64,000 nucleotides of DNA from assembly GCF_021233435.1 (NCBI RefSeq), contig NZ_CP089468.1:1550001-1614000 (forward strand), given 5' to 3'. The DNA is from Halobacterium noricense (GTDB taxonomy: Archaea > Halobacteriota > Halobacteria > Halobacteriales > Halobacteriaceae). Of this stretch, positions 23,375 through 58,707 are shown in pieces. How positions within the stretch are numbered: position 1 is the stretch's first letter; every line of letters starts with the position of its first letter. A model generated the notes under the pieces. The model was not told where the DNA came from. It did not search any database and saw only the letters and a program-made list of their open reading frames with translations. The translations under genes were made by a program, and so were the position numbers.

Positions 23375-23876
23375 GGTAGTGTTCAGATAAGGATTGGTCT
23401 GACTGCAGCTTCAGCCGTCGAATCAGCCGATTTCCTGGTGGTCGCCGGGAGAGCAACGCTCTCCCGAGGCCTCGGAAATCGGAGATTTCCGGCGGATTGA
23501 AAGGGCGAGGCGCGCGTGGCGGCGAAGCCGCCACGTTTTGCGGCGGTCGGCGTAGCCGACCGCCCACTCAACGAACCCCGGCGTTCGGAAGACGCGACGC
23601 GTCTCTCGTCGCAATTCGCGAGGGCGGCGAACGCTTTGCGTTCGCCTGCTCTCGAAAGAGCGCTGTGCGCTCTTTCGGCGACAGAGAGGGAGCAAGCTCC
23701 CTCAGGCAGCCGGCGGGTATGCCCGTCGGCGACAGCGAGCCGCGGGAGTGTCGTGAGTGCAACGAGCGAGACCACGGGAGACGAGCATAGCGAGTCTCCC
23801 GACGGTCGAGACTGCCGAGGGCGTTCAAAAGGCAACGTCGTCTCCGCTACTTTCGTCTGCTTATCTGAACACTGCC
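23375..23876. mobile_element. Hairpin-array MITE, copy A (502 bp)
   Basis: A non-coding element with ends GGTAGTGTTCAGATAAGG and (reverse) GGCAGTGTTCAGATAAGC. It carries at least eight near-perfect hairpins with 3-4 nt loops, e.g. arms GGCGGTCGGC/GCCGACCGCC, loop GTA (23542-23564), arms GTGGCGGC/GCCGCCAC, loop GAA, and arms GGCGAACGC/GCGTTCGCC, loop TTT. It is in the opposite orientation to the copies at 30959, 31832, 32271 and 57471. Flanks CTGCTCAC and GTGAGCGG are reverse complements rather than direct repeats, apart from one mismatch. Long spurious frames cross it on both strands. Confidence 0.85.
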
Positions 23877-24557
23877 GTGAGCGGACGGCGACGTGACGAG
23901 GCGCTCCGCGTCTCGTTCGCACATCAGAACCGTTGGGTTCTGAGGACGCCCGTCAGGGCGTTCGCCGTCCGCCTTCACGCGACCGGTTGTTCACTCAGAG
24001 AGACAACAACGATTCTCGCGGAATTGGGCGTGGAACGCTCTCACAAGCAGTTTGGCAGTGGGTACATCGGCTGTCTGATAGCGTTCCCGACCCGCCTGAG
24101 GCGCAGCCGAAGCGGGTCGCGGTTGACGAAACTGCTGTCAAAATTAACGGTGAGTAGTCTTGGTTGTACGCTGCAATATACCTCGACACAAAGCTCATTC
24201 TTGACGTTGCGTTGTTCGGACGCCATGGTACCGATCCGGCGGCTGCGTTCCTCGCTGGACTGGTGAAGAAACACGATCTCTCCGACGCAACGTTTCTCGT
24301 CTATCAGTTCGCTACCGGACTGCACTTGGACGATTAGGACTGAACGGTCGGGTTGACTACACCGACCGAAACCTCATCGAAAAATGGTTTCACACACTGA
24401 AAATGCGGCTCGACCGTTTCCATATCTCGTGGGTGGGCAGTCGGCGGAGCGTTCGCCAGTAGCTTGCGTTATTTGCGCATTACTACAACCGCCTCAGACC
24501 GCATCAATCGCTTGGTGATCGAACGCCAGCTGACGAGGTCCTAAACTAGACAGTGCC
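23877..24557 (+). pseudogene. IS6-type transposase, 5' truncated and frameshifted
   Basis: The body of a second IS6-type element (right end CTAGACAGTGCC at 24546-24557). It starts at ERTAT, about 23 codons into the transposase, abutting MITE copy A. It then has a 55-nt hairpin insert (23891-23945), a one-base deletion near 24045 compared with the copy at 58080, a catalytic Asp changed to Tyr (VDQF to VYQF at about 24300), another frameshift just after, and an in-frame TAG where the family has Trp before LALFAHYYN. It cannot make an active enzyme. Confidence 0.88.
23891..23945. repeat. 55-nt insert of two hairpin modules inside the IS6-type gene
   Basis: Compared with the uninterrupted copy at 58080, 55 extra bases sit between the codons for ERTA and P. 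They contain two hairpins: one built on ACGAGGCGC...GCGTCTCGT, one on CAGAACC...GGTTCTG. Both hairpin types occur side by side in the MITEs (57740-57830). The insert is flanked by ACG on both sides and brings a TGA in frame. Confidence 0.8.
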
Positions 24558-31831: not shown

Positions 31832-32262
31832 GGCAGTGTTCAGATAAGCAGACGAAAGTAGCGGAGACGACGTTGCCTTTTGAAAGCCCTCGGTGGTCTC
31901 GACCGTCGGGAGACTCGCTATGCTCGTCTCCCGTGGTCTCGCTCGTTGCACTCACGAGACTCCCGCTGGTCGCTCACGTGCTTACTTCGTCCTCAGAACC
32001 CGTCGGGTTCTGATGGGTGGTTCGAGAGGACGAAGTCCTCTCGTCATCCCGAGAGACGCCGTCGGCGTCTCTCGGTCGACTGCGGAAGACGCGTCGCGTC
32101 TTCCGAACGCCGGGGTTCGTTGAGTGGGCGGTCGGCTGTGCCGACCGCCGCAAAACGTGGCGGCTTCGCCGCCACGCGCGCCTCGCCCTTTCAATCCACC
32201 AGGAAATCGGCTGATTCGCCGGCTGAAGCTGCAGTCAGACCAATCCTTATCTGAACACCACC
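31832..32262. mobile_element. Hairpin-array MITE, copy C (431 bp)
   Basis: It is flanked by GTATGAGG at 31824-31831 and 32263-32270. It carries five hairpins, among them arms CAGAACCC/GGGTTCTG, loop GTC (31994-32012), arms CCGAGAGACGCC/GGCGTCTCTCGG, loop GTC (32049-32075), and arms GGAAGACGC/GCGTCTTCC. Compared with copy E it lacks a block that holds four other hairpins. Confidence 0.88.
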
Positions 32263-57470: not shown

Positions 57471-58079
57471 GGCAGTGTTCAGATAAGCAGACGAAAGTAG
57501 GAGAGATGCCGTTGCGTTTTGAACGCCCTCGGTGGTCTCGACCGTCGGGAGACTCGCAGTGCTCGTCTCCCGTGGTCTCGTTCGTTGCACTCACGACACT
57601 CCCGCGGCTCGCTGTCGCCGACGGGCTATGCCCGCCGGCTGCCTGAGGGAGCTTGCTCCCTCTCTGTCGCCGAAAGAGCGCACAGCGCTCTTTCGAGAGC
57701 AGGCGAACGCGAAGCGTTCGCCGCCCTCGCGAATTGCGACGAGAGACGCTCCGCGTCTCTCGGACCACGCGCGTTCGCTCCCGGTGGTCGCTCACGTGCT
57801 TACTTCGTCCTCAGAACGCTGCGCGTTCTGATGGGTGGTTCGAGAGGACGAAGTCCTCTCGTCATCCCGAGAGACGCCGATGGCGTCTCTCGGTCGACTG
57901 CGGAAGACGCGTCGCGTCTTCCGAACGCCGGGGTTCGTCGAGTGGGCGGTCGGCGCAGCCGACCGCCGCAAAACGTGGCGGCTTCGCCGCCACGCGCGCC
58001 TCGCCCTTTCAATCCGCCGGAAATCGGCTGGTTCGCCGGCTGAAGCTGTGTTCAGACCAATCCTTATCTGAACACCACC
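57471..58079. mobile_element. Hairpin-array MITE, copy E (609 bp)
   Basis: The longest copy, with all blocks present. Ends GGCAGTGTTCAGATAAGC and (reverse) GGTGGTGTTCAGATAAGG. Hairpins include arms CGAGAGACGC/GCGTCTCTCG, loop TCC (57740-57762), arms CAGAACGC/GCGTTCTG, loop TGC (57812-57830), arms CCGAGAGACGCC/GGCGTCTCTCGG, loop GAT (57867-57893), and arms GGCGGTCGGC/GCCGACCGCC, loop GCA (57945-57967). Flanks CTCGCCTT and GTGAGCGG do not match, so one side was lost by recombination. Confidence 0.88.
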
Positions 58080-58707
58080 GTGAGCGGACAGCAACGCCCG
58101 TCAGGGCGTTCGCCGTCCGCCTTCACGCGACCGGTTGTTCGCTCAGGGAGACAACAACAATTTTAGCTGAATTAGGTGTGGAACGCTCTCACCAAGCAGT
58201 TTGGCAGTGGGTACATCGGCTGTCTGATAGCGTTCCCGACCCGCCTGAGGCGCAGCCGAAGCGGGTCGCGGTTGACGAGACCGCTGTCAAAATTAACGGT
58301 GAGTGGTCTTGTCTATATGCTGCAATAGATCTCGACTCAAAGTTGATTCTTGACGTCGCGTTGTTTGGGCGGCATGGTACTGATCCAGCGGCTGCGTTCC
58401 TGTCTGGACTAGCGAAGAAACACGATCTCTCAGACACCACGTTTCTCGTCGATCAGTTCGGCTATCGGACTGCCCTTAAACGATTAGGACTGAACGGTCG
58501 GGTTGACTACACCGACCGAAACCTCATCGAAAAATGGTTTCACACACTGAAAATGTGGCTCGACCGTTTCCATATCTCGTGGGTGAGCAGTCGGCGGAGC
58601 GTTCGCTAGTGTCTTGCGTTATTTGCACATTACTACAACCGCCTCAGACCGCATCAATCGCTTGGTGATCGAACGCCAGCTGACGAGGTCCTAAACTAGA
58701 CAGTGCC
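58080..58707 (+). pseudogene. IS6-type transposase, 5' truncated, with amber codon
   Basis: The frame begins ERTATPVRAFAVRLHATGCS at the MITE end and continues with VDETAVKINGEWSCLYAAID (first Asp), TTFLVDQFGYR (second Asp) and DRNLIEKWFHTLKMWLDRF (Glu). A TAG at 58607-58609 interrupts it before LALFAHYYNRLRPHQSLGDR. The first 23 codons are missing and are preserved at 35634-35747 in another copy. The right end is CTAGACAGTGCC at 58696-58707. Confidence 0.9.

Follow-up and report, generated by a model that had tools for sequence, protein, structure and literature searches.

Rickettsia palindromic elements (RPEs; Ogata 2000, 2002, as summarised in PMC10969869 and PMC3733652) are, as far as these summaries describe them, small repeated palindromes lying in frame within unrelated housekeeping genes, to which they add a short peptide; those of the review are about 150 bp long, and their mobiliser is unknown. 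The CGTC-tagged REPs (Di Nocera et al. 2013, PMC3733652) have stems of 8-9 bp with a CGTC motif adjoining the first hairpin, and their intragenic copies encode 20-30 amino acids; they have no associated transposase, and only bacterial phyla appear in that survey. Among haloarchaea, the SMR-A repeats of Haloquadratum walsbyi, reported from this one species, are about 110 bp long, with terminal inverted repeats and commonly more than 95% identity within a type (PMC3119063). They have no transposase, generate no target duplication, are frequent in IS605-type elements, and their mobilisation was called enigmatic (PMC3119063).

The unit analysed here, two hairpins within 51-60 bp, was found inside an IS6-type transposase copy in a window of 64,000 nucleotides (the whole stretch analysed, C1:1550001-1614000) of a 3.3 Mb haloarchaeal genome, hereafter G000. 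As with RPEs, so far as the summaries allow the comparison, it lies in frame in genes whose reading frame is intact (nine insertions in seven genes, compared with empty orthologs), but it is archaeal, order-wide, 51-60 bp long and built of two separate triloop hairpins. It has in common with the CGTC-tagged REPs stems of 8-9 bp, a CGTC beside the first hairpin, peptide-encoding copies within genes and the lack of a transposase. It nevertheless does not meet the criteria of that class (CGTC tag, 4-5 nt loop, CCA tail), since its loops are of 3 nt closed by C-G, its tail is TGG or TGTGCG, the first C of the tag is part of the target junction, and its two hairpins form a fixed, asymmetric unit. 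Like SMR-A, it is haloarchaeal, frequent in IS605-type elements and devoid of target duplication (a 2-bp CG duplication is not excludable). It differs from SMR-A in its length of 51-60 bp, in its ends GTT... and ...GGAC, which are not inverted repeats, in its variable stem sequence, order-wide spread and in-frame presence in genes, and in not sharing the SMR-A preference for palindromic targets. REP/RAYT and REPIN systems also consist of short hairpin units kept by structure that spread non-autonomously, whereas the two-hairpin unit has neither a GTAG tag nor a consistently present transposase gene (PF01797 is absent from copy-rich genomes). MITEs are likewise non-autonomous and high-copy, but the unit lacks terminal inverted repeats and any target duplication above 2 bp, and its ends are asymmetric. 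In behaviour the element comes nearest to RPEs and CGTC-tagged REPs and, within the haloarchaea, to SMR-A; the likeness to RPEs is one of behaviour, and neither sequence relation nor membership is claimed. It falls short of each system in size, terminal repeats or tail. No literature on such elements in frame in archaeal genes was found among open-access papers, which does not prove its absence.

Alignment of two 5'-truncated IS6-type copies of the window, both on the plus strand, at 23876-24557 and 58079-58707, revealed a clean insertion of 55 nt in the first, at 23893-23947. The filled copy reads ...GGCGAC, then GTGACGAGGCGCTCCGCGTCTCGTTCGCACATCAGAACCGTTGGGTTCTGAGGAC, then GCCCGTCAGGG..., and the empty copy, at 58094, ...AGCAAC GCCCGTCAGGG...; the inserted bases are thus GTGACGAGGCGCTCCGCGTCTCGTTCGCACATCAGAACCGTTGGGTTCTGAGGAC, flanked by GGCGAC and GCCCGTC. 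The empty site of the second copy is AGCAACGCCCGTC, and the target in the IS6 element RAC^GCCCGTCAGGGCG. Because of GAC repeats at the ends, with GAC/ACG on both sides, the boundaries are uncertain by +/-3 nt and were placed by the junction rule of the element family (see below). The initial annotation had reported 55 extra nucleotides at 23891-23945, positions equivalent within the GAC/ACG repeat, and two types of hairpin inside them. The insertion is real, and both hairpins are present (ACGAGGCG/CGTCTCGT, with one G.T pair, and CAGAACC/GGTTCTG). On the plus strand, hairpin 2 (ACGAGGCG-CTCCG-CGTCTCGT) occupies 23896-23916, the conserved linker TCGCACA (TGTGCGA on the minus strand) 23917-23923, and hairpin 1 (TCAGAACC-GTTG-GGTTCTGA) 23924-23943. 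The element itself is on the minus strand, which reads GTCC-hairpin1-TGTGCG-hairpin2, the CGTCC orientation of the family. Besides the empty site and the junction rule, it is supported by its match to the family covariance model (E = 5e-21, this copy being itself among the training copies) and, independently of the model, by four occurrences in the genome, at 96-100% identity, of a 92-nt stretch containing the insert. The host was identified by copy alignments and by Pfam on an intact copy (DDE_Tnp_IS240). Its transposase frame is broken by the insert plus further indels: the 55-56 nt lie in phase 2 and cut the frame, with a stop after ERTAT. Twelve main IS6-type copies were counted in G000, 4 filled, in two sub-lineages, and 8 empty.

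Judged from its sequence, the insert belongs to a family of tiny mobile elements, each of about 57 bases and two hairpins. A genome search with the insert gave related stretches having the same layout but other stems, and on six of them a first covariance model, R1, was built; its matches yielded many further copies, and a second model, R2, built on 20 copies, was then applied to other genomes. The unit consists of two triloop hairpins and a conserved linker, 51-60 nt overall, and reads in CGTCC orientation GTCC, hairpin 1, TGTGCG or TGGGCTGC, hairpin 2, and GTTAAC or GAAC. In hairpin 1 the outer CAGAA...TTCTG is conserved and the inner pairs vary and covary around a 3-nt loop. In hairpin 2, also with a 3-nt loop, every pair is variable; its arms are the most variable in the family, with compensatory changes in 10 of 10 pairs. 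The linker corresponds to invariant alignment columns. Across the 20 copies, 96.8% of cells were paired and 14 of 19 pairs had changed on both sides; 72 distinct rows from relatives gave 97.5% of cells paired, 17 of 19 compensatory pairs and 248 double-change cells, where shuffles gave 72 +/- 8 and slid controls no more than 24. Fitting the alignments to the structure biases them in its favour, but the margin is far larger than that bias. Structure, loop closure and ends remain constant under these compensatory changes of the stems, so it is the folded shape that is maintained. The fixed order, linker and ends of the unit exclude single hairpins moving independently.

Over 55 distinct sites, the left junction was RRC^G, with R at position -2 in 97% of them and C at position -1 in 82%, and the right one GGAC^G. 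As read from these junctions, the unit inserts precisely between the C and the G of an RRC^G target. Since C followed by G is present at both junctions, there is either no target duplication or a 2-bp CG duplication, and the few non-CG junctions do not discriminate between the two. Congeners have orthologous genes in which the site is empty, and unoccupied sites are also present in IS6 and IS200/605 copies and in MITEs. The initial annotation had suggested searching for empty sites with short duplications; precise empty sites exist in genes, IS and MITEs, but any duplication is at most 2 bp. Some IS sites lie in palindromes, which hinted at palindromes as the target choice, but this is unsupported over all 54 sites tested, where hairpin energy does not depart from the local RRC^G background (mean rank 0.507).

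Matches to R2 at E<=1e-3 were obtained in 38 of 40 relatives and in 21 of the 23 genera of the order. A phylum-wide search at E<=1e-8 matched 49 genomes of the order, four others of the order being listed without a match, and none of about 240 genomes of the phylum outside it. Plasmid records with similar sequence were all haloarchaeal among the matches listed. The element is spread through nearly all haloarchaea and is specific to them. Copy numbers ranged from 0 to 78 per genome in the searched set, these counts being lower bounds, because the model searches scored only a limited set of candidates. Copies standing alone outside MITEs, another check that had been proposed at the outset, number about 20 in G000 and hundreds in relatives. 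One degenerate pattern scan of viral contigs gave no match, which is weak evidence against haloviral carriage given the strict pattern. One genome of only 1.9 Mb (G034) holds at least 78 units, many as tandem pairs or triples (e.g. L204-L208), and is a candidate for recent amplification.

Nine insertions, in seven G000 genes, were checked against empty orthologs of congeners. They lie in MenD (57 nt, at TGCGA(C)^GTGGAC), an M20 peptidase (57 nt), an amine-oxidase family flavoprotein (114 nt, two units in tandem), a gene without family (L067, 60 nt at each of two sites), glucosyl-3-phosphoglycerate synthase (GpgS, 60 nt), a Hel308-type helicase (57 nt) and fibrillarin (60 nt). Host genes were identified with Pfam and NCBIfam, the names GpgS and Hel308 resting on scores below the curated NCBIfam cut-off. 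As no examined congener has these insertions, each is recent in the G000 lineage. That in fibrillarin was missing from all 35 parsable of 80 named orthologs; the best matches of this fibrillarin among named genomes were Halobacterium species, Halobacterium sp. KA-4 being the closest.

All nine insertions are on one strand, in codon phase 0 and of a length multiple of 3 (57, 60 or 114 nt), and the unit reads as about 20 hydrophilic residues, VRKTTESSSAAHQNAxRSED. RRC^G sites available in genes are sense phase 0 in 29% of cases and antisense phase 0 in 25%, so that 9 out of 9 is not expected from site supply alone (0.294^9, about 2e-5). This figure is an overstatement, the nine having been chosen as in-frame candidates, and a test based on the flanks, with the element itself unused, is less biased. 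Ten sites had clear coding on both sides: all 10 were on the sense strand, and 8 combined sense phase 0 with a length multiple of 3. Of the two exceptions, one (L060/L071) is the second of the tandem units in the flavoprotein gene, with the first unit lying in its flank. Nor can the choice of frame be put down to stop codons alone, since four of the six frames of the unit are usually open; the chosen one is hydrophilic and of near-neutral charge, while the others that are mostly open give clearly basic peptides. The likeliest filter is purifying selection acting on the peptide. The same in-frame peptide was found in relative genomes, in NAD kinase (L172), archaeal MinD (L192), a methyltransferase (L179) and a PAS sensor (L191), and a near-identical in-frame insertion in DUF2797 of two species (L173 and L177, 1001-1062 in each), apparently inherited and not repeated. 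Frame-shifting copies exist as well, in a thioesterase (L059) and an enoyl-CoA hydratase (L064). The former insertion, in an acyl-CoA thioesterase-like gene (L059, 1501-1560), is apparently common to G000 and G010 (L157, 1001-1060), and the disrupted or re-started gene may therefore have survived speciation.

We conclude, with a probability of about 0.87, that the insert is a non-autonomous haloarchaeal mobile element of about 51-60 bp, which inserts at RRC^G, keeps its stems by structure and has in-frame copies in genes; no transposition was observed. Its precise insertion into genes, IS6, IS200/605 elements and MITEs is shown by the empty sites of each. Copies in coding sequence would be translated and tolerated, RRC matching Gly, Asp and Asn codons and the peptide being harmless, while other insertions would be removed by purifying selection; both steps are inferred, translation from reading-frame evidence only. 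We lean, with much more reserve, towards a wider view in which order-wide, still active mini-elements, recognised by shape and served in trans by an undescribed enzyme, continue to insert peptides of some 20 residues, in frame, into single-copy housekeeping proteins, RRC^G falling between codons after Gly, Asp or Asn, as an archaeal counterpart of the RPEs. To our knowledge, in-frame mobile palindromes have so far passed for a speciality of a few bacteria, Rickettsia among them. Insertions of an archaeal family in fibrillarin, MenD, Hel308 and other proteins show that the in-frame mode arose, or persists, in another domain, and haloarchaea are genetically tractable hosts in which both the movement of such elements and their tolerance by proteins can be studied. 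What the mobilising enzyme must recognise is delimited by the pairs of empty and filled sites, by the RRC^G target and by the covarying stems. For annotation, the element accounts for species-specific peptide insertions in conserved haloarchaeal proteins.

What moves the unit is less clear: no mobilising enzyme was identified, nor could any gene be named. The conserved structure, the precise junctions and the shortness of the target suggest an enzyme acting in trans on folded single strands; that its substrates are single-stranded hairpins and a short target, as in HUH and REP transposition, is a tentative proposal, made by analogy. A more specific version, in which the HUH transposase TnpA of IS200/IS605 mobilises the unit through its hairpins, as RAYT does with REPs, is unlikely but deserves consideration. 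Conservation by structure, the lack of target duplication and the short target would all fit, units cluster near IS200/605 TnpA and TnpB genes, and across 40 genomes the number of Y1_Tnp (PF01797) genes correlates with that of the units (Spearman 0.43, p=0.006, without correction for phylogeny). This correlation is confounded, however, by copies riding in IS200/605. Left ends of these elements with the unit (L244) and without it (L254, L251) indicate that it inserted at fixed IS200/605 sites and was then carried along by the IS, so that adjacency to Y1_Tnp is explained by insertion. Moreover, PF01797 was absent from G017, G012, G027 and G028, which carry at least 41, 11, 10 and 12 copies respectively, and the unit ends are unlike those of IS200/605 elements. 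TnpA was thus rejected as the owner. A serine recombinase (PF00239), suggested by the C and G at both junctions, was also rejected, being absent from G034 with its 78 copies or more. In several genomes the element lies near the C-terminus of IS200/605 TnpB, in frame and in opposite orientation (L047, L199, L201, L207), where the omega-RNA would overlap; an effect on the guide RNA is only a possibility. In G026, a unit is located inside the left-end hairpin of an IS200/605-type element (L248, 1764-2340).

The many copies in IS200/605 left ends, TnpB ends and IS6 could also mean that the unit spreads only by riding on IS elements and by homologous gene conversion, without transposition of its own. 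In line with this, the inserts of the two filled G000 sub-lineages are nearly identical while the IS bodies are only about 81% identical, and gene conversion may have copied one of them, instead of two insertions having occurred. As a general explanation it is nevertheless very improbable, because the unrelated single-gene insertions have no flanking homology and the same exact junctions, which gene conversion cannot produce.

Slightly less tenable again is the reading in which the long IS6 form is ancestral and the short forms are deletions. It could draw on the filling of the same nucleotide in several genera, and on a filled copy (L039, 1315-2114) whose DDE frame is open downstream of the insert. 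In the IS tree, however, filled copies do not form one clade: two G000 pairs, G004, G010 and G030 are separate, each with empty nearest neighbours, and empty copies such as L035 have intact transposase ORFs. Plasmid copies from Haloferax mediterranei, Haloferax larsenii, Haladaptatus, Haloterrigena and Natrononativus are filled at the same nucleotide, though the fraction of filled copies cannot be inferred, these records having been selected for matching the insert and its flanks. The elements at this one nucleotide belong to different subtypes in several genera, and the Haloferax larsenii copy has two different units in tandem there (L354, 1001-1113). An ancestral long form in intact IS copies, the finding that the initial annotation had named as refuting its own reading, is rejected on the basis of the IS trees. 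Repeated insertion of the mobile unit, or repeated exchange at a hot spot, would be the simplest reading of this site. In G030 and Haloterrigena, units occupy a second IS site too. In L039, a GTG at the element boundary is a possible new start codon.

Both hairpins are also present within the MITEs of the window, and the insert might accordingly be an immobile piece of a MITE that the IS acquired by copying or capture; we give this very little credit. When the MITE flanks of the unit were joined and searched in the genome, at least six MITE copies ran straight through without it; the empty L345 reads CTTACTTCGCTGGGG, and the filled L348 CTTACTTC, the unit, then GCCGGGG. MITE copies with and without the unit at the same site mean that it inserts into MITEs and did not originate from them. 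Most of the stand-alone copies closest to the insert have the TGTGCG type of linker, which is missing in MITEs, and exact-ended copies are found in genes and IS of many genera. Taken in its simplest form, with the MITE as the source of the modules, the picture of the initial annotation is therefore reversed. Its suggestion that modules move apart from the MITE survives in the stand-alone copies and precise empty sites, but what moves is the hairpin pair of about 57 nt with its conserved linker, not single hairpins. A structured regulatory RNA or transcript-processing signal, which the strong compensatory evolution of the two stems could reflect, is no more credible, as the unit had no Rfam match above the gathering score, its positions are species-specific within the genus, and it sits in coding sequences of unrelated function and in IS elements.

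Two copies of the mobile unit in the window's MITEs, both on the plus strand, are nested. The copy at 57807-57926 (L347) is split between hairpins 1 and 2 by a further hairpin pair; the other, at 31989-32108, was recognised by a match at 31987-32048 (E=1.2e-10, C1:1581987), its right end being inferred from the first. The additional two-hairpin block (TGGTTCGAGAGGACGAAGTCCTCTCGTCATCCCGAGAGACG...CGTCTCTCGGTCGA), at 57837-57897 and within 31989-32108, is possibly a second mobile hairpin family, and sister MITEs such as L348 carry the un-nested form of the element.
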